A program made the translations under genes and the position numbers. The notes beneath the pieces were generated by a model. The model worked only from the letters and a program-made list of their open reading frames with translations, made no database searches and was not told where the DNA came from. A stretch of 36,160 nucleotides of DNA from Candidatus Zixiibacteriota bacterium (lineage in GTDB: Bacteria > Zixibacteria > MSB-5A5 > SM23-73-2). Within the stretch, counting starts at the first letter, position 1. Each line of letters starts with the position of its first letter. Shown here piece by piece: positions 7,518 to 36,122 of the stretch. The stretch is from NCBI GenBank assembly GCA_030615745.1, contig JAUWYR010000025.1, positions 1 to 36,160 of the forward strand, in the 5' to 3' direction.

Positions 7518-7810
7518 ACGGTAAACGGAAAACTGAAAACAGTAAACAGTAAAAAATCCTTTAATGGTTGCGTCAGGAGTTTCCGTTTGAAGCTAAAGGT
7601 TCTGTCAGGAGGTAACTACCGACAGCACTGGAAAAAATCACATTTCCTTTGCTGGCTGTTGGTCTTCTTGACCAACAGCTTGATGGTTTATGAAATCTTT
7701 CTGTTGGTGGAGAACACCAACAGATAACGAAAAAAAATTACATTTTTCTTATTCAATTTCGCAGAGAGATAAACCCTCCCTGGCCGGGCAGGCTGACGCT
7801 TTAAAAAGGT
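7518..7810. repeat. Dockerin-associated intergenic cassette, copy A
   Basis: The order is: GTAAACGG/AGTAAACAGT-type short tandem repeats (about 7519-7551); a degenerate GCGTCAGGAGTTTCC element (about 7569-7585); an imperfect hairpin at 7602-7625 with outer arms CTGTC and GACAG; hairpins at 7655-7679 (arms GCTGTTGGTC and GACCAACAGC) and 7701-7723 (arms CTGTTGGTG and CACCAACAG); and a TTCAATTTCGCAGAGAGATA element with CCTGGCCGGGCAGGCTG (about 7748-7798). Related parts recur at 27224-27467, 29282-29480 and 32621-32941. Confidence 0.75.
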
Positions 7811-15682: not shown

Positions 15683-15793
15683 AACTGAATCTGAACAAAA
15701 TGATGGTGCTTTTAATTAACATAACAAAGTTGCAAACGTATAGTTTTATAGTGCAATTTAAGTTGTTGTATAGCTTGGTATTTGAGGAGGGTT

Positions 15794-16825
15794 ATGGTCT
15801 TTGAGGATTTATCTCAAAGGGGGAAAAGTGTATTTGGAGCCATAATAGATCACTATGTTTCCACAGCTCAGCCAGTAGGTTCAAGGGTGATTGCTGAGAG
15901 ATACAATTTCGGAATTTCCCCTGCAACTATCAGAAATACCATGCAGGAGCTTGAGGAGATGGGTCTGGTCGAACAACCTCACATATCTTCTGGTAGGGTT
16001 CCCACTGATAAAGGATACCGGGTCTATGTGGACCAGCTTTTAGAGCCGGAGAAGCTTTCTAAACCAGAGTTGAAAAAGATTAAACAGAAAATAGAAGTCG
16101 ACTACAAAGCTATCGAGGAGCTTTTGGAAAAGACCTCAAAAGTTTTGGCAGATGTCTCCAAACAATTAGGAGTTAGCCTGGCTCCGAGATTCGACAAAGG
16201 TATTTTAACCAATGTTGATCTGATGCAAGTTGCTGAGAAAAAGCTTTTGGTTGTCTTGGCGGTCAAATCCGGTTTGGTTAAAACAATTCTTCTCGAAGCA
16301 GAATCAAGCCTTAAAAGCTCAAGTTTGGAAAGGACTAAAAGAATCTTAAATGAGAGATTATGTGGTCTCTCCCTGAAAGAGATTTTTGATTCTATGGACC
16401 AGAGATTAAAGGAGACATCCATCGCTGATCTGAAACTTATCAAACTTTTTCTTAATTCAAAAGAAGCTTTTCTTTCATTTCAACAGGAGGAGAATATCCA
16501 TTTAGGTGGAACCACAAATATACTTAATCAACCTGAATTTAAAGATCAAAGGATGCTAAGCTTTTTAATTGAGCTTCTTGAGGAAAAAAAGACTTTAGCT
16601 GAGCTTGTTTCTGCTAAAGAGCTCAAAGAGGGGATTACTATAACCATTGGAAAAGAACTAATGCATGGGGATTTTTGTTCTTTGAGTCTGGTTACCTCAT
16701 CTTATCAAGCAAAAGATCTCAAAGGGACAATCGGGATTATAGGTCCAAAAAGAATGAAGTATGCCAAATTGGTCTCTTTAGTTGACTATACCGCAAAACT
16801 TCTCTCAGAAATTCTTTCGAGATGA
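15794..16825 (+). CDS. hrcA: Heat-inducible transcription repressor HrcA
   Basis: 343 residues from the ATG at 15794, preceded by GAGGAGG; a TTG at 15782 would add four residues but has no site before it. The N-terminal winged helix is diagnostic: DHYVSTAQPVGSRVIAERY, then ISPATIRNTMQELEEMGLVE, then QPHISSGRVPTDKGYRVYVD. The C-terminal GAF-like domain contains GTTNILNQPEF and ends GIIGPKRMKYAKLVSLVDYT. HrcA represses chaperone operons by binding CIRCE operators, with GroEL as cofactor. It begins the hrcA-grpE-(RAYT)-dnaK cluster. No CIRCE (TTAGCACTC-N9-GAGTGCTAA) can be seen upstream of it or of either dnaK. Confidence 0.95.
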   Translation: MVFEDLSQRGKSVFGAIIDHYVSTAQPVGSRVIAERYNFGISPATIRNTMQELEEMGLVEQPHISSGRVPTDKGYRVYVDQLLEPEKLSKPELKKIKQKIEVDYKAIEELLEKTSKVLADVSKQLGVSLAPRFDKGILTNVDLMQVAEKKLLVVLAVKSGLVKTILLEAESSLKSSSLERTKRILNERLCGLSLKEIFDSMDQRLKETSIADLKLIKLFLNSKEAFLSFQQEENIHLGGTTNILNQPEFKDQRMLSFLIELLEEKKTLAELVSAKELKEGITITIGKELMHGDFCSLSLVTSSYQAKDLKGTIGIIGPKRMKYAKLVSLVDYTAKLLSEILSR

Positions 16826-16838
16826 AAAGGAGGTGGAT

Positions 16839-17513
16839 GTGAAAAAAGACGAAAATGAAAAAAAACAAAATGAAGTTAAATCCTCAGATCAAGAAATTGA
16901 AAAGGTGACGGAAAAAAAGGAAAAAGGGGAAACTCCTTTAGGAGAAATTACTATAAAACAACAAAAAGAGATGCAGAAAGAGATGACTGAGGTGCAGGTC
17001 TTAAAGGAGCGTTTGGATGAGAGTGAAAAGGAGTGCAAAAAGCTTGAGGACAGACTTCTTCGTGTGGCGGCTGATTTCGATAATTTCAAAAAAAGAACAG
17101 CAAAGGAATTTGCTAATTTGATAAAGTTTGCTAACCAGGATTTGATAGCCAAGTTAACCGACACATTGGATAATTTTGAAAGAGCCTTAGATTCAGCAAA
17201 AAATTCTTCTGATTTTGATAGTTTTCATAAAGGAGTGGAACTGATTTATAATCATCTAAAGGATATTTTAACCAAAGACGGTTTAAAGGAGATAAAGACA
17301 AAGGGTGAGAAATTTGACCCTAATCTTCATGAGGCGGTTTCTCAGATTGAGTCGGATGGATATCCAGAGGGAGTGATCGTGCAGGAAATCTCGAAAGGAT
17401 ATATCTTAAAGGACAGGGTGATAAAGGCACCGAAGGTTATTGTTTCAAAAGGGAAAGTTAAAGAAAAGAAGGGAGAAGAGAAAAAAGCGGAGAAAAAGGA
17501 AAGAAAAGATTAA
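16839..17513 (+). CDS. grpE: Nucleotide exchange factor GrpE
   Basis: 224 residues from a GTG at 16839, chosen because AAGGAGG (16827-16833) lies five bases before it; starting further upstream would overlap hrcA. The first 60 residues are charged and low in complexity, then a long coiled coil (about 60-110, ending RLLRVAADFDNFKKRTAKEF, a GrpE signature), then the beta domain with FDPNLHEAVSQIESDGYPEG and GYILKDRVIKAPKVIVSKG. It releases ADP from DnaK. The Lys/Glu-rich C-terminal tail (EKKGEEKKAEKKERKD) is longer than usual. It sits 13 bases after hrcA in the same operon. Confidence 0.95.
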   Translation: MKKDENEKKQNEVKSSDQEIEKVTEKKEKGETPLGEITIKQQKEMQKEMTEVQVLKERLDESEKECKKLEDRLLRVAADFDNFKKRTAKEFANLIKFANQDLIAKLTDTLDNFERALDSAKNSSDFDSFHKGVELIYNHLKDILTKDGLKEIKTKGEKFDPNLHEAVSQIESDGYPEGVIVQEISKGYILKDRVIKAPKVIVSKGKVKEKKGEEKKAEKKERKD

Positions 17514-17539
17514 AATTGAGGATGTATTTTTTATTGTTA

Positions 17540-17615
17540 CTGCATTATAAATGCAGCAACAACGTCGGTTTGTTGGTGTTTTTTACCTGTTGGTGCTGGA
17601 TTTTTAATCCAGCAC
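17540..17615. repeat. REP-like double palindrome upstream of the RAYT gene
   Basis: Hairpin 1 at 17540-17556 has arms CTGCATT and AATGCAG. After CAACAAC and a GTTGGTG spacer comes hairpin 2 at 17593-17615, with arms GTGCTGGATT and AATCCAGCAC and a 3-base loop. The same order recurs at 18193-18253, downstream of the transposase gene, as a direct repeat. Confidence 0.85.
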
Positions 17616-17631
17616 AAAAAGAAAGCGCATA

Positions 17632-18180
17632 ATGAGACATAAAACCTTATTTGATAGAGATCATTTATATTTCATAACAACCTCGACGATAAAGAAAAGA
17701 AACATTTTTCAAAATAATGATTATTGTGACATAATCGTCTGTAGTTTAAATTATATCAGAAAGGAAAAATGGGTGAAATTATATTCTTATGTGATTATGC
17801 CTAATCACCTTCATATGATTGTTAAGTTCCTGAATTCTTATGACCAATCAAAAGTAATGAGGGATTTCAAAAAGTTTACTTCAAAAAAGATCGCTAAAAT
17901 GGCTGAGATGCTTAAGGACGTGAAGAGCCTTGAGTTTTTCAGAAAATGCGCTAACCACAAAAGACAGAAGCATAAAGTTTGGGAGGATGAATTTCAAGAT
18001 CGAAATATTTACAGCACCAGATTTTTATTTCAAAAGATGAGATATATCCATAACAATCCCTTGCAGAAAAAATGGAGGTTGGCAGAAAAACCGGAGGATT
18101 ATAAATATTCGAGTGCAAGAAATTACATTCTTAATGATAATTCAGTTTTGGAAATTGATCATTTTGAGGAACTATTTTAA
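17632..18180 (+). CDS. REP-associated tyrosine transposase (RAYT, Y1_Tnp/IS200-like)
   Basis: 182 residues, typical length. The HUH motif is H59-L60-H61 in SYVIMPNHLHMIVKF, and the catalytic tyrosine is Y138 in KMRYIHNNPLQKKW. The RAYT C-terminal pattern EDYKYSSARNY is also present, so the enzyme looks intact. RAYTs are single-copy domesticated relatives of IS200/IS605 transposases that cut single-stranded REP palindromes. Here palindrome pairs flank the gene on both sides in the same orientation, and single palindromes of the same type occur near 20306 and 27137-27181. The gene lies between grpE and dnaK with no good ribosome-binding site (the ATG follows AAAGAAAGCGCATA), suggesting insertion into the heat-shock operon. 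Confidence 0.9.
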   Translation: MRHKTLFDRDHLYFITTSTIKKRNIFQNNDYCDIIVCSLNYIRKEKWVKLYSYVIMPNHLHMIVKFLNSYDQSKVMRDFKKFTSKKIAKMAEMLKDVKSLEFFRKCANHKRQKHKVWEDEFQDRNIYSTRFLFQKMRYIHNNPLQKKWRLAEKPEDYKYSSARNYILNDNSVLEIDHFEELF

Positions 18181-18192
18181 TAATTAAATTTT

Positions 18193-18285
18193 GCTGCATT
18201 GAAAATGCAGCAACAACATCCGTTTTGTTGGTGCTGGATTTTTAATCCAGCACAATGTTCTGTTGTATTACTAATGTAATAACAA
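18193..18285. repeat. REP-like double palindrome downstream of the RAYT gene, plus a third hairpin
   Basis: Hairpin 18193-18211 has arms GCTGCATT and AATGCAGC. Hairpin 18231-18253 has arms GTGCTGGATT and AATCCAGCAC. A third imperfect hairpin at 18263-18285 has arms TTGTATTAC and GTAATAACAA. The first two match the pair upstream of the transposase gene. All lie in the leader of dnaK. Confidence 0.85.
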
Positions 18286-18322
18286 AAAACAAAAAAGATG
18301 ATTTAAAGGAGGATGAAATAAA

Positions 18323-20227
18323 ATGGCAAAAGTTATAGGTATTGATTTGGGGACTACTAATTCTTGTGTGGCTGTGATGGAGGGAGGGGAGACTAAGGTT
18401 ATTCCCAATGCTGAGGGTTTGAGGACTACTCCTTCTGTTGTAGCATTTACTAACACCGGTGAAAGATTGGTCGGGCTTGTTGCAAAAAGGCAGGCGATAA
18501 CTAACTCGGAGAACACTGTCTTTTCAATCAAAAGATTCATGGGAAGACGCCATCACGAAGTATTGGAAGAGGAAAAACTGGTTCCATATAAGATAGTTGA
18601 AGTACCGAACGGAGATGTCAGGGTTAAAATTCAGGACAAAGAATATTCACCTCCTGAGATCTCCGCTATGATTTTGCAAAGTATGAGAAAAACAGCAGAG
18701 GATTATTTAGGTGAGGAAGTAATCCAGGCAGTTATAACTGTTCCTGCATATTTCAATGACTCCCAGCGCCAGGCAACCAAGGATGCAGGGAAAATAGCCG
18801 GATTGGAAGTTTTGAGGATTATCAATGAACCCACAGCTGCGAGTTTAGCTTATGGATTGGACAAAAAAAGTAATGAAAAAATAGCGGTTTTTGATCTGGG
18901 TGGTGGGACTTTCGATATATCAATTTTGGAATTGGGTGAAGGTGTTTTCGAAGTTAGATCAACCAATGGTGATACCCATCTGGGTGGGGATGATTTTGAC
19001 CAGAGAATAATTGACTTTTTAGCAGAGGAGTTTTTAAAACAGCAGGGAATTGACTTAAGAAAAGATAAGATGGCATTACAAAGATTGAAAGAGGCGGCTG
19101 AGAAAGCAAAATGCGAGCTTTCAACTACCATGCAAACCAATATTAATCTTCCATTCATTACTGCTGATTCCTCTGGTCCCAAGCATCTGGACATCGCTTT
19201 AACCCGTGCTAAATTAGAGCAATTGGTAGACGATTTAATCCAGAGGACAGTGGGTCCTTGCAAGCAGGCATTAGCGGATGCAAAACTTTCGCCCTCGGAT
19301 ATCAATGAGGTTATTTTGGTTGGGGGGCAGACCAGAATGCCCAAGGTTCAGGAGGTGGTTAAAGAGCTTTTCGGAAAAGAGCCACATAAAGGAGTAAATC
19401 CAGATGAGGTGGTTGCTATAGGTGCGGCAATTCAAGCAGGGGTCTTAGCAGGGGAGGTTAAAGATGTTGTGCTTTTGGATATTACTCCTCTTTCATTAGG
19501 GATTGAGACCTTAGGTGGGGTGATGACCCGTTTGATCGAGAGAAATACCACCATTCCCACCACAAAGTCCCAGATATTCTCCACTGCAGCTGATAATCAA
19601 CCAGCGGTTTCGATCCATGTTCTGCAGGGTGAGAGAGAGATGGCTATCGATAATAGAACCTTAGGAAGGTTCGATTTAGTGGGTATACCACCAGCACCCC
19701 GAGGTGTTCCCCAGATCGAGGTTGCCTTTGACATCGATGCTAATGGGATTGTGCATGTCTCAGCTAAAGATTTAGGAACAGGAAAGGAGCAGAAGATAAA
19801 GATTGAATCCTCAAGTAGGTTATCCGAAGAAGAGATTAAAAAGATGGTAAAAGATGCTGAAGCTCATGCAGAGGAGGATAAAAAGAAAAAGGGTTTGATC
19901 GAATCAAGAAACAAGGCTGACCAGATGGTTTATACTACTGAGAAAACTTTAAAGGAATATGGTGATAAGATCTCAGTTGATGAGAAGAAAAAGGTTGAGG
20001 AAGCAATAGAAAAAGTCAAAAGCGTAATGAAAGGTGACAATAAAGAGGAGATAGATAAAGCAGTTGAACAGATGCTTTCTGCATCTCATAAAATAGCTGA
20101 GGAGATGTATAAGAAGACCGCGGCCCAGACATCATCCCCACCTCCAAAAGAAGAGAAAGAGAAAGGAGAAAAGAAAAAAGAGAAGGGGGAAGGAGCGGTG
20201 GATGCGGATTATGAGGTGGTGGAGTAG
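18323..20227 (+). CDS. dnaK: Chaperone protein DnaK (Hsp70), copy 1
   Basis: 634 residues, complete, with AAAGGAGG before the ATG. The ATPase domain has the phosphate-1 motif [14 protein letters not shown] (5-18), [32 protein letters not shown], the [13 protein letters not shown] phosphate-2 motif and [14 protein letters not shown]. The substrate domain begins [19 protein letters not shown] and the lid ends in a charged tail closing VDADYEVVE. It folds and refolds proteins with GrpE (coded upstream) and DnaJ (no dnaJ is in this window). The RAYT insertion lies between it and grpE, so its expression may depend on read-through or on a promoter in the 18181-18322 leader; none is clear by eye. 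A second, closely similar dnaK starts at 34227. Confidence 0.97.
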
Positions 20228-20535
20228 GCAGTAGACGGTAAACGGTAAACAGAAAACAGTAAACAGTAAACGGAAAACAGTAAACAGAAGATAGTATGTC
20301 TGTTGGTGCTGGATTTGTAATCCAGCACAACATATTAATATTCAGTAAACAGAAAATTTGTTGGTTCGGGTACCTTACCCCGAATTATAAACGGTCAAGG
20401 GTAGGAGTACCTTTGACCAACATGGAGGTAATCTTTTAATAAAAATATTTTTTTTAAAACGATTTCGCGAGGATGAATTCCCCGCTCTATATTGAAAGAG
20501 CTGTATCTCATAGAAGCGGGAATTTATCCCACCTT
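20228..20535. repeat. Repeat-rich gap after dnaK copy 1
   Basis: About 20228-20290 holds irregular short repeats of AGTAAACAGTAAAC type; their complement gives a spurious VYCFPFTVYCFLFTVYR frame. Hairpins follow: 20306-20328 (arms GTGCTGGATT and AATCCAGCAC), 20365-20384 (arms TTCGGGTA and TACCCCGAA), 20393-20418 (arms GGTCAAGGGTA and TACCTTTGACC) and a long imperfect one at about 20472-20532 (GGATGAATTCCCCGCT against AGCGGGAATTTATCC). No gene is seen in 20228-20686; 20536-20686 is plain AT-rich DNA. Confidence 0.75.
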
Positions 20536-27084: not shown

Positions 27085-27136
27085 ATAGAAGAGTAAGCAG
27101 GTCAACGGATTGAGCGGATATAATTATCTGTTGTTA

Positions 27137-27181
27137 CCGAATTTTTAATTCGGCAATTCTTTGCTGCATTAAAAATGCAGC
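27137..27181. repeat. REP-like palindromes of the RAYT-associated type
   Basis: Hairpin 27137-27153 has arms CCGAATT and AATTCGG; hairpin 27163-27181 has arms GCTGCATT and AATGCAGC. CAACAACA follows, as at the copies flanking the RAYT gene. The first stem differs from the others but keeps the TTTTTAATT loop style. Confidence 0.75.
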
Positions 27182-27223
27182 AACAACACAAGGTCAGGGC
27201 ACCTGGCGTGCACAATATTTTAT

Positions 27224-27467
27224 GGTTCAATTTCGCAGAGGGATAAACCCTCCCTGGCCGGGCAGGCTGCTACGCGTAGAGGAGCCTTTATGGCTCCGAT
27301 ACCTTAAAAATGGCTTGAAAAACCTCAGATTTTGCTTGACAAAATAGTATAAAAACTTGTATTAGACTAAAGAAGCATTTCTTAGACCATCTATATTGCG
27401 GGAGTTCAGATGAATTCACCACGAGCTTTTTTTATCCATTGTGGCGTCAGGAGTTTCCTCCTGACGC
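27224..27467. repeat. Dockerin-associated intergenic cassette, copy B
   Basis: A TTCAATTTCGCAGAGGGATA element (about 27227) is followed by CCTGGCCGGGCAGGCTG and CTACGCGTAGAGG. Then comes a hairpin at 27281-27297 (arms GGAGCC and GGCTCC, loop TTTAT). At 27444-27467 is a hairpin with arms GCGTCAGGAG and CTCCTGACGC. The same elements occur at 7518-7810, 29282-29480 and 32621-32941 in different orders. No gene is seen in 27085-27616. Confidence 0.8.
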
Positions 27468-29281: not shown

Positions 29282-29480
29282 GTAGTAAACAGTAAACAGT
29301 AGACAGTAGACAGTAAACAGTAAGAAACCTTTAATGGTGGCGTCAGGAGTTTACTCCTGACGCTTAAGATTCTATCGGGAGGTAACTCCCAAAAGACTGA
29401 AAAAAAATACATTTTTGTTCTTCAATTTCGCAGAGGGATGAACCCTCCTACGCGTAGAGAAGCCTTTATGGCTCCGATAC
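29282..29480. repeat. Dockerin-associated intergenic cassette, copy C
   Basis: AGTAAACAGTAGACAGTA-type tandem units (about 29284-29323) come first. Next are a GCGTCAGGAG/CTCCTGACGC hairpin (29340-29363), an imperfect TCGGGAGGTAACTCCC element (about 29374-29390), TTCAATTTCGCAGAGGGATG (about 29421), CTACGCGTAGAG and AGCCTTTATGGCT. The order is the same as in copy A after the orphan dockerin tail. Confidence 0.8.
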
Positions 29481-32620: not shown

Positions 32621-32941
32621 GTAGTAAACGGTAAACAGTAGACAGTAAACAGTGAACGGTAAACGGTAAACAGAAAAAGAAAAAACCTTTGATGGTGGCG
32701 TCAGGAGTTTCCTCCTGACGCCTTGTTGTTTAATTTCGGAGAGGTATAAAACCTCTGCTACGCGTAGAGGAGCCTTTATGGCTCCGATACAATAGAAACT
32801 GAATTAAATCATTCTGTCGGGAGTTACCTCCCGACAGCACGGAAACAAAATTACATTTTCTCATTCAATTCCACAGAGGGATGAACCCTCTGCTAAGCGA
32901 AGCTGCCTGCCCGGCCAGGGGAGCCTTCATGGCTCCGATAT
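32621..32941. repeat. Dockerin-associated intergenic cassette, copy D (two units)
   Basis: AGTAAAC/GGTAAAC tandem units (about 32623-32673) are followed by a hairpin at 32698-32721 (arms GCGTCAGGAG and CTCCTGACGC). A first CTACGCGTAGAGG plus GGAGCC/GGCTCC hairpin lies at about 32757-32785. A hairpin at 32814-32837 has arms CTGTCGGGAG and CTCCCGACAG. A second unit at about 32867-32941 has CAGAGGGATGAACCCTCTG, GCCTGCCCGGCCAGG and a GGAGCC/GGCTCC hairpin at 32920-32936. No gene lies in 32621-33263; from 32942 to 33213 the DNA is AT-rich with TTTGACA-type strings. Confidence 0.8.
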
Positions 32942-33213
32942 CCTACAAACTGCATAGAAATCATAGACCCACCTTGAGGCAAGATAGGCTACCAACCTAA
33001 AATCGTCCTTGAACCGACCTGCTAAGATTTAATATCCCAAATAATAACGACTTTGTCATTTTGACCTCATCTTTGTCAAAATAGCATAAAAATTTGACAG
33101 ATTCTCACTTGATATGCCATTTTGACATTATAGCAGATTCTTATACTTTTCGTCGATTATCATAATCCGTTGAAATTAAACAGCTTATAGAATAAGATTT
33201 TAGATTTACATTT

Positions 33214-33230
33214 TGGCACGGGCTTTGCAT
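33214..33230 (+). promoter_or_regulatory. Sigma-54 (RpoN) promoter upstream of the hsp20-hsp20-dnaK cluster
   Basis: TGGCACGGGCTTTGCAT matches the sigma-54 consensus TGGCAC-N5-TTGCA exactly, with GG (33215-33216) and GC (33227-33228) separated by the required 10 bases. Transcription would start near 33240, giving a short leader of about 25 bases that holds the GGAGG site of the first hsp20 gene (ATG 33264). An enhancer-binding activator would be needed; none is coded in this window. No clear sigma-70 promoter is seen alongside. Confidence 0.8.
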
Positions 33231-33263
33231 TATATATTACAAAAAAATCAGGAGGTGAGAAAG

Positions 33264-33638
33264 ATGAGATTGATTAGCTTTTTACCGATATTTGACTCTT
33301 TTGATTTCAGGAATGGCAATGGATTTGATCCCGATATGGATATTTTTGAAACTGATAAGGATTTTGTTATCGAGGCTGAAATTCCAGGAGTTTCAAAAAA
33401 TGATATGAAGTTAAATGTGGAGAATGATATCCTTACTCTGGAGGTTGAAAAGAAAAAAAAGAAAGAAGATGAGAGTTTTATATTTAAAGAAAGCAGAGAG
33501 GGAAAATTCAAAAAGATATTCTCTCTCCCTAATGATGTGGAGTCTGATAAGATAAAAGCTAAATTTGAAAATGGGGTTTTGAGGATAATAATTCCCAAAG
33601 CCAAGGTTTTAATACCAAGAGAAATAACCCTTAACTAA
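33264..33638 (+). CDS. Small heat-shock protein (Hsp20/alpha-crystallin), first copy
   Basis: 124 residues from the ATG at 33264 with GGAGGTGAG upstream; an in-frame start at 33213 would lie inside the sigma-54 promoter. The N-terminal arm is short (MRLISFLPIFDSFDFRNGNG). The alpha-crystallin domain is about 25-115: FVIEAEIPGVSKNDMKLNVE, NDILTLEVEKKKKKEDESFI, then the AKFENGVLRIIIPKA signature near the end. The last residues PREITLN hold a weak I-x-I-like tail. An ATP-independent holdase that keeps unfolding proteins soluble for DnaK. First gene of the cluster; the second hsp20 follows after nine bases. Confidence 0.93.
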   Translation: MRLISFLPIFDSFDFRNGNGFDPDMDIFETDKDFVIEAEIPGVSKNDMKLNVENDILTLEVEKKKKKEDESFIFKESREGKFKKIFSLPNDVESDKIKAKFENGVLRIIIPKAKVLIPREITLN

Positions 33639-33647
33639 AAGAAAGGA

Positions 33648-34103
33648 GTGATTTATACGGCTATCAGAAGGTGGAGACCTTTCAGAGACATCCTGTCTGT
33701 TCAGGATGAGATGAACAGGCTTTTCGATGAGTTCTTCGGCAGAACTCTTACCAGAGGTGAGGAATTTGAGAGGATGCGGAGTCCGAATGTTGACGTTTCT
33801 GAGACCAAGGATAATATCCTGGTCACAGTAGAGATTCCGGGGATGACAAAAGATGATATTAAAGTTACAGTTCGGGATAACATCCTCACCTTGAGCGGAG
33901 AGAAAAAGCAGGAGAAAGAAGAAAAAGATGCTAATTACCACAGGATCGAGCGCTCTTATGGTTCCTTCTGCCGTTCCTTTGAACTGCCGACAACCGTTCA
34001 ATTCGATAAGGTCAAAGCGGGCTATAAAGATGGCATCTTGAAGATAACTCTGCCGAAGTCAGAAGAGGTGAAGCTCAAGGAGATCCCGATTAATATAAGT
34101 TGA
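33648..34103 (+). CDS. Small heat-shock protein (Hsp20/alpha-crystallin), second copy, with unusual start
   Basis: 151 residues if the GTG at 33648 is used. That GTG overlaps the end of the GAAAGGAG ribosome-binding site, so it is badly placed. An in-frame ACG at 33657 is followed by AIRRWRPFRDILSVQDEMNR and is correctly spaced (8 bases after GGAG); family proteins often start MAxRRWxPF. Either ACG is the start codon or an ATG has changed. The alpha-crystallin domain is complete: DVSETKDNILVTVEIPGMTK, DNILTLSGEKKQEKEEKDAN, FCRSFELPTTVQFDKVKAGY then KDGILKITLP, and a C-terminal IPI motif (KEIPINIS) for oligomer assembly. It is translated just after the first hsp20 from the same transcript. Confidence 0.88.
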   Translation: MIYTAIRRWRPFRDILSVQDEMNRLFDEFFGRTLTRGEEFERMRSPNVDVSETKDNILVTVEIPGMTKDDIKVTVRDNILTLSGEKKQEKEEKDANYHRIERSYGSFCRSFELPTTVQFDKVKAGYKDGILKITLPKSEEVKLKEIPINIS

Positions 34104-34115
34104 TCTCCGGTAAAA

Positions 34116-34160
34116 ATTCTAACCAGCACCCCCGTTTCAGCGGGGGTTCTGGTTTAGAAT
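34116..34160. terminator. Long hairpin between hsp20 and dnaK copy 2 (attenuator, processing site or terminator)
   Basis: Inner arms AACCAGCACCCCCG and CGGGGGTTCTGGTT pair over 14 bases with one mismatch around a TTTCAG loop. The stem extends outward through ATTCT and AGAAT with one bulge. No U-run follows, so it is not a standard terminator; it could reduce read-through or stabilise the upstream hsp20 message. Confidence 0.65.
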
Positions 34161-34226
34161 TAACTTTGAATAGGGTTGAAATTTTATAACATAGATCAAA
34201 TTTTATTGGTAAGGAGGTGAGATAAA

Positions 34227-36122
34227 ATGGGTAAGATAATTGGAATAGACTTAGGAACCACTAACTCCTGCGTTGCGGTTGTTGAGGGAAAAGACCCGGT
34301 GGTTATCTCTAATGCTGAAGGGTCCAGAACAACACCATCTGTTGTTGCTTTTACAAAAACAAAAGAAAGACTTTTAGGACAGGTGGCTAAGCGTCAGGCT
34401 ATCACTAATCCTGATAATACTGTCTTTTCTATAAAGAGATTTATGGGTAGAAAATATGATGAGGTCGCAAATGAGATAAAAACTGTTCCATACAAGGTTG
34501 TCAGAGGATCAGCAGGAGATGCAAAAGTAAAGATTATGGAGAAAGAGTATTCTCCCCCTGAGATATCTGCGATGATTTTGCAGAAGATGAAACAGACTGC
34601 GGAGGATTATCTTGGTCAAAAAGTTACCGAGGCGGTGATCACAGTTCCAGCTTACTTCAATGATTCACAGCGTCAGACAACCAAGGATGCTGGAAGGATT
34701 GCTGGTTTAGATGTTAAAAGAATCATAAATGAGCCAACCGCAGCATCTTTGGCTTATGGACTTGATAAAAAGAAAGATGAGAAAATAGCTGTTTTCGATC
34801 TTGGTGGAGGGACATTCGATATTTCTATTCTTCAATTGGGAGAAGGTGTTTTCGAGGTTATAGCTACTAATGGAGATACTCATCTTGGAGGGGATGATTT
34901 CGATAAAAGGATAATTGACTGGATTGTAGCTGAGTTCAAAAAAGAGAACGGGATCGATTTATCAAAAGATCCAATGGCTTTACAGAGATTAAAAGAGGCT
35001 TCTGAGAAAGCTAAGTGTGAACTCTCAACAACTCTTGAAACCACCATAAACCTACCTTTTATAACCGCTGATGCATCTGGTCCCAAACATCTGAGTCTGA
35101 CCCTGACCAGAGCAAAACTGGAGCAGTTAGTTGATGATTTAATCCAAAGGACTATTCAGCCGGTAAAGAATGCCTTAGCTGATGCGAAGCTTGAACCTGA
35201 ACAAATTGATGAGGTTGTTTTGGTAGGCGGAATGACAAGGATGCCTAAGGTTCAAGAGACTGTTAAAAACCTATTTGGAAAGGAACCTCATAAAGGGGTT
35301 AATCCTGATGAGGTGGTTGCAATTGGTGCTGCTATTCAGGGCGCGGTTTTATCTGGTGAGGTTAAGGACGTATTGCTTTTAGATGTGACTCCACTTTCTT
35401 TGGGAATCGAGACCTTAGGTGGTGTCTTCACTAATTTAATAGAAAGAAATACCACTATCCCTACCAGAAAATCTGAGATATTCACCACTGCAGAGGATAA
35501 TCAGACCTCAGTTGAGATCCATGTTCTTCAGGGTGAGCGCCCCATGGCAATAGATAACAAAACTATAGGAAGGTTTCATCTTGATGGAATTCCTCTTGCA
35601 CCGAGAGGTATGCCTCAGATAGAGGTTGCTTTTGATATCGATGCCAATGGTATTTTAAATGTAAAAGCTAAGGATAAAGCCACTGGAAAACAGCAGTCAA
35701 TAAGAATTGAGGCTTCTTCTGGATTATCTGAGACGGAGATCCAGAAGATGGTCAAAGATGCAGAGGCTCATACTGCTGAAGACAAAAGATGCAGGGAAGA
35801 GGTAGACACTAAAAACAGAGCAGACCAGATGGTTTATGAAACCGAAAAGAATTTAAGAGAGTTCGGAGACAGATTAGATGTTGATACTAAGGCTAAAGTT
35901 GAAGCAGCAGTCGGAAGAGTAAAGGAGGCTTTAAAAAGATCTGATATTTCGGAGATTAAGTCTGCTACCGAAGCCCTAACCCAAGTCTGGCATGAAGCAG
36001 CAGGAAAGATGTATCAGAGGACAACATCAGCCGGGTCAACTCAGCCAAATCCAGAACCACAAAAAGAACAGAAGAAAGATACACAAGAGCCGGTAGATGC
36101 AGATTATGAGGTGATAGATTGA
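34227..36122 (+). CDS. dnaK: Chaperone protein DnaK (Hsp70), copy 2
   Basis: 631 residues, complete, with AAGGAGGTGAG before the ATG. All Hsp70 signatures are intact: [77 protein letters not shown] and [14 protein letters not shown]. It ends VDADYEVID. It aligns with copy 1 almost without gaps and, by eye, is identical at roughly three quarters of positions; differences cluster in the lid and tail (residues 520-620). It sits 123 bases after two hsp20 genes, behind a strong hairpin, and probably belongs to the sigma-54-driven stress cluster, whereas copy 1 belongs with hrcA and grpE. No grpE or dnaJ accompanies it here. Confidence 0.96.

Follow-up and report, generated by a model that had tools for sequence, protein, structure and literature searches.

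A single-copy RAYT gene bounded by two different REP hairpins between grpE and dnaK of a Zixibacteria genome, probably a REPtron within a small REP array

The question raised by this locus is what kind of element separates grpE from dnaK, and whether it arrived recently or is an old resident of the heat-shock cluster. The window, that is, the whole stretch of 36,160 nucleotides analysed here, is contig 25 of a 2.28 Mb genome assembled in 74 contigs and 98.6% complete (G000), and its hrcA-grpE-dnaK cluster lies at 15716-18323. The features on which the argument turns are the following.

16839-17513, plus strand: grpE (Pfam GrpE, E 7e-53)
17539-17564, plus strand: A', a REP hairpin with a CAAC head on its 3' side (from the sequence; REPIN model match at 17511-17565 with 30 bits, which is weak)
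17589-17615, plus strand: B, left REP of the REPtron, a GTTG head followed by GTGCTGGATT/AATCCAGCAC (from the sequence)
17632-18180, plus strand: RAYT (REP-associated tyrosine transposase), 182 aa (NCBIfam NF047646, Pfam PF01797)
18191-18218, plus strand: A, right REP of the REPtron, TTGCTGCATT/AATGCAGCAA followed by a CAAC head (matches the right half of the dispersed REPIN)
18227-18253, plus strand: B', left half of the dnaK-leader REPIN, identical in the sister species G001
about 18261-18284, plus strand: A'', decayed right half of the B' REPIN (REPIN model)
18323-20227, plus strand: dnaK (Pfam HSP70)
20302-20328, plus strand: third copy of B, with one loop base different, 3' of dnaK (from the sequence)
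about 20360-20423, plus strand: older REPIN-like palindrome pair 3' of dnaK, also 3' of dnaK in G001, with about 81% identity
27126-27189, plus strand: complete two-hairpin REPIN of the dispersed family (REPIN model, 84 bits)

The reading frame of the RAYT gene is uninterrupted over its full length. Its product matches the NCBIfam family REP_Tyr_transpos (NF047646) with 102.7 bits (E 1.6e-29; curated cut-off 80) and Pfam Y1_Tnp (PF01797) with E 5e-9, and the translation has the HUH motif as NHLH at 58-61 (H59-L60-H61) and Y138 within YIHNNP, a Y...NP motif. The initial annotation had called an intact RAYT with HLH at 59-61 and Y138 and had placed it, with its hairpins, between grpE and dnaK; the first statement is confirmed by the translation and by the NCBIfam match above cut-off, and the second by the firm Pfam identification of both neighbours. 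An insertion sequence of the IS200/IS605 type was considered and rejected, as the IS200 profile gives 27.8 bits against a cut-off of 55, YIHNNP stands in place of Y...Q, and the other two RAYTs of G000 are distant relatives in the tree and not near-identical copies. In a PDB sequence search with the RAYT, TnpA-REP (4er8) reached only E 0.26, below chance-like matches. Weak Y1_Tnp matches at contig 25:9291 and contig 53:20045 look like noise, the latter having no convincing similarity to other RAYTs. In the tree, the window RAYT clusters with RAYTs from another family of the same order (support 95/88), one of which has a left border, CCCGCTGGATG..CATCCAGCGGG, similar to B. In a scan of named genomes with the RAYT, one Zixibacteria record matched at 43% identity over 58 residues, which gives a lead to the phylum and no more.

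G000 holds three RAYTs in total, and the other two are bounded by different hairpins, the one on contig 17 (L010) by GTCAGGAG..CTCCTGAC with GTAG heads and the one on contig 65 (L012) by GTCAAG..CTTGAC with CTAC. Judged by eye from translations, the former gene lies between glutamyl- and glutaminyl-tRNA-synthetase-like ORFs, and the latter adjoins a QueA-like ORF. A RAYT-like match is present in 84 of the 98 relatives, and at 23 of 38 RAYT loci the gene is flanked on each side, at a distance of up to about 120 bp, by a perfect palindrome of at least 9 bp, as compared with 0 of 760 shuffled pairs; across these 38 loci the flanking palindromes vary from one RAYT to another. Published surveys have found REPtrons in many phyla (PMC6006769, PMC3733652). 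The earlier view that RAYT/REP systems are known mainly from gamma-proteobacteria is not supported: given the matches among the relatives and these surveys, the RAYT is ordinary in this lineage, and the element is of a known kind, common in the class.

The architecture of the element is written in its hairpins. Those of B (17593-17615), A (18191-18213) and B' (18231-18253) have perfect 10-bp arms and a 3-nt loop each, and in that of A' (17539-17557) the outermost arm base is mismatched; across the window, 21 perfect palindromes reach an arm length of at least 8, as against 0-4 in mononucleotide shuffles. Every hairpin of the spacer carries a GTTG head on one side, and the two that enclose the gene form an inverted pair, B-RAYT-A, whose GTTG and CAAC heads point outward. 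Because of this outward orientation the unit is taken to be B-RAYT-A, with A' and B' as parts of neighbouring REP units; from its sequence, A' appears to be the right half of an upstream REPIN with a degenerate left half, and the B'-A'' pair matches the REPIN model at 18223-18288 with 52 bits. The feature is thus probably, at about three chances in four, a REPtron in which a single-copy RAYT is bounded by two different REPs, within a small REP array, an arrangement as in Nunvar et al. 2010 (PMC2817692). The initial annotation had described the same two-hairpin unit in direct orientation on both sides of the gene, which is literally correct, but such a unit spans the halves of two neighbouring ones; similarly, of the single hairpins it had listed near 20306-20328 and 27137-27181, the first is single, whereas the second belongs to the full two-hairpin REPIN at 27126-27189. 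The foot of the A- and B-type REPs is GTTG and not the canonical 5' GT[AG]G, which excludes the canonical REP type and not membership of the RAYTs, the REPs of subclass 2.6 being likewise without GT[AG]G (PMC6006769).

Relatives of these hairpins are scattered through the genome. From 20 genome stretches around related palindromes, the dispersed element was delineated as a unit of about 56 nt, GTTG-TTGCCGAATT-nnn-AATTCGGCAA-n5-TTGCTGCATT-nnn-AATGCAGCAA-CAAC. In an alignment of 19 units, with compensatory stem changes, 96% of the stem cells are paired, and nine cells changed on both sides, a figure reached by 0 of 500 shuffles. A covariance model gives 76 two-strand matches in G000, corresponding to about 39 places (21 of them with at least 60 bits), and about six places in the sister G001, both counts being lower bounds, with 136 candidates scored per genome. 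Seventeen of the 19 units checked in G000 lie outside every ORF of at least 90 aa, and their neighbours occur in every orientation. These units are REPINs: two REPs in inverted orientation, separated by a short spacer and with their heads facing outward, recur between genes. The hairpin bordering the RAYT on the right, A, recurs as the right half of the scattered REPINs; its counterpart on the left, B (GCTGGATT), differs from their left half (GCCGAATT), so that the link from this RAYT to the dispersed REPINs extends to the right half only. The genome-wide count of copies that had been suggested gives about 39 related palindrome places; as for the two hairpins forming one repeated unit, A is indeed dispersed in the genome, at the places of the REPIN family, but B is local to the grpE-dnaK locus.

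Other palindrome families share the window and the genome. A second REP family, GTCAGGAG..CTCCTGAC, occurs in the window at 27446-27465, 29342-29361 and 32700-32719, and a pattern search with variable loop counted 40 exact-stem copies of it in G000 and 18 in G001, the reversed-pattern control giving 0. More REP-like palindrome types lie at 382-401, 1817-1836, 7655-7724 and 20360-20423, the types seen being GTCGA..TCGAC with CTAC, TCTGTTGGT..ACCAACAGA and a TTCGGGGTACC/GGTACCC pair; G000 has many palindrome families as against only three RAYTs. In G001 a RAYT is flanked by GGTGTCAGGAGGTAACTCCTGACACC, and G000 contains many GGTGTCAGGAGGTAACTCCTGACACC hairpins, none of its three RAYTs being closely related to that one; from this case, each of the two genomes seems to contain REPs whose RAYT it lacks. 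The window also encodes a second dnaK within 33213-36122, behind two Hsp20-like genes and 72% identical to the first, and G001 too has a second dnaK, on the contig that carries the first. No CIRCE (HrcA site) was found in the window at up to three mismatches, although HrcA is present.

The age of the element can be approached through G001, the only congener searched, which is 86% complete. Of the 118 class genomes searched for GTTGGTGCTGGATTnnnAATCCAGCAC at up to two mismatches, two contain B, namely G000 and G001. In G000 the exact-stem copies start at 17589, 18227 and 20302, all at the RAYT/dnaK locus, and beyond these the search gave a two-mismatch variant on contig 70 as well as a match on the reverse strand to a copy included in this count; in G001 there is one copy, in the dnaK leader. 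The grpE-dnaK spacer of G001 measures 1317 bp and is without a RAYT; it contains a 381-aa ORF (L053 2179-3324) of no clear family, whose relatives elsewhere in the order are all distant. Between the two species the B' hairpin with its head is identical at 27 of 27 positions, and the block around it, TTTTGTTGGTGCTGGATTTTTAATCCAGCACAATGTYCT, at 38 of 39, its distance to dnaK being 69 nt in G000 and 54 nt in G001; outside this block the leader has diverged up to the ribosome-binding-site stretch. A'' is absent from G001 as a hairpin. Seven RAYT-like matches lie elsewhere in G001, the closest 41% identical to the window RAYT, and no counterpart of the latter was found in this genome at its 86% completeness. 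The REPIN pair L035/L127, considered as a control for a single orthologous site, has flanks too rearranged for certainty. Given that the B' block has changed at a single position at the orthologous place, despite a difference at 46% of the four-fold sites of dnaK, comparison of the two sequences makes it most likely that the dnaK-leader REP predates the split of G000 and G001.

This bears directly on the scenario originally favoured, in which a working RAYT element recently entered a compact grpE-dnaK operon, carrying both hairpin units with it. Such an insertion would fit the GC content of the RAYT gene (30%, against 36-43% in the neighbouring genes), the larger number of REPINs in G000 than in its sister, and the fact that no window-type RAYT stands at the locus in any relative with a readable gap. 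It is nevertheless unlikely, since B' with its flanks occupies the same dnaK-leader place in the congener without the RAYT, which is what the initial annotation itself had named as evidence against its reading, namely palindromes beside grpE-dnaK in relatives devoid of the gene. Moreover, B is absent elsewhere among the 118 genomes of the class, and the decay of A'' fits an old unit. The notion that a normally compact operon has been split does not hold for the sister, where another ORF fills the 1317 bp; the comparison of gaps that had been suggested gives 91-193 bp for those relatives of the same order in which the gap could be measured, in agreement with a compact state there, but not in G001. 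In other class members the spacers are mostly 19-220 bp, with one of 743 bp that has another ORF. It is less probable that the leader REP came first, already standing in the genus ancestor, and that the RAYT unit was inserted beside it later, targeted by the matching hairpin. The conservation of B' where the RAYT is missing would agree with this order of events, as would the known tendency of REPs to accumulate near, or integrate with, RAYT genes (PMC2817692); but B is not dispersed and has no exact copy off the locus, so that its match to the left end of a newcomer would be a coincidence. Because B was found at this locus only, the simplest history would be that the REPtron resided in the genus ancestor and that its gene was lost in G001, a reconstruction from one sister genome that is 86% complete.

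By analogy with TnpA-REP of E. coli and its family (PMC8266576), the RAYT protein would recognise the GTTG foot of a REP folded as single-stranded DNA, cleave with Tyr138 and then carry out strand transfer. In this way the 56-nt REPINs, gene-less pairs of inverted REPs, could have been seeded between genes. The grpE-dnaK locus would have held a REP array already in the genus ancestor, of which G001 kept B' and lost the RAYT. Once transcribed, the hairpins may fold in the intercistronic RNA, where, if active at all, they would most likely act as passive barriers to RNA decay and not as terminators. Influences of REPs on neighbouring genes, through termination and mRNA half-life, have been reported in work cited in PMC8049555.

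Whether the leader hairpin has been put to use by the host is a separate matter, compatible with either history. One conceivable reading is that B', a RAYT-derived REP hairpin, was domesticated as a fixed structure of the dnaK leader, regulating or stabilising the mRNA, and was kept by selection letter for letter, while its partner half and the RAYT of the sister disappeared. The identity of B' and its head at all 27 positions, while the right half of its REPIN decayed in both species, speaks for such a co-option, as does the lower identity (about 81%) of the orthologous REPIN-like pair 3' of dnaK. In the window, the 150 nt that lead up to dnaK and extend into it form a strong fold (z -5.0), and a strong hairpin, unrelated to B', also occurs in the grpE-dnaK spacer of the relative G006 (z -5.4). 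We nonetheless regard the proposal as doubtful: it depends on one species pair, taken in its entirety, the G001 leader shows no unusual structure (z -0.6 and -1.5), the B' hairpin alone standing out, most relatives have dnaK leaders that are not unusually structured and are without a leader hairpin, and a recent loss of the RAYT would likewise leave B' intact. It is highly improbable that the hairpins serve as ordinary intrinsic terminators or as attenuators. B' was indeed listed as terminator-like in a terminator scan, but its tail AATGTTCTGT is no real U-run, the scan found 4 sites as compared with 3.3 expected in shuffles, and the hairpin family is also dispersed as two-hairpin units with neighbours in every orientation. 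A promoter scan gave 14 sites against 12 expected, Rfam had no match in the window, and a literature search on a grpE-dnaK intercistronic hairpin or on transposases of Zixibacteria returned nothing useful.

Taken together, these data indicate that RAYT-REP systems are the norm in a class of bacteria (84 of the 98 genomes searched), with a GTTG-footed, A+T-rich type of REP, and they offer a case of a REP outlasting or predating its RAYT at an orthologous site, which bears on models of REPIN persistence. Should the dnaK-leader hairpin prove to be under selection, this would be a tangible example of a host making use of a REP, here in a heat-shock operon.

Among known systems, the window RAYT resembles the TnpA-Y1 subclass 2.6 (Bertels group 5) of Quentin et al. 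(PMC6006769), with which it shares NHLH, YIHNNP, a length of about 180 aa and REPs without GT[AG]G. It has two of the three motifs of the set NH[LIV]H / WQ / YIH[QN]NP, with WE where the subclass has WQ; judged by its motifs (NHLH, WE, YIHNNP and the foot without GT[AG]G), subclass 2.6 would be the nearest, although that subclass is one of Bacteroidetes, from which the window RAYT is not known to come. The dispersed units agree with described REPINs (PMC3116915, PMC8049555) in their two inverted REPs, outward heads, short spacer and tens of copies, and also in that the sister genome has copies without the matching RAYT; they differ in measuring about 56 nt, with a spacer of just about 5 nt, and in their moderate number (about 39 places). 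The element as a whole is closest in plan to the yafM REPtron of E. coli, whose rayt gene has BIMEs on either flank (PMC2817692, PMC3733652, PMC6006769). Both consist of a single-copy gene with HUH and Y...NP motifs between two different inverted REPs, lie amid further REPs, and are accompanied by REP doublets scattered between genes. The window element differs from its E. coli counterpart in the GTTG foot that replaces GT[AG]G, in its perfect A+T-rich stems with 3-nt loops, in having one boundary REP, B, that is not dispersed, and in its location between grpE and dnaK.
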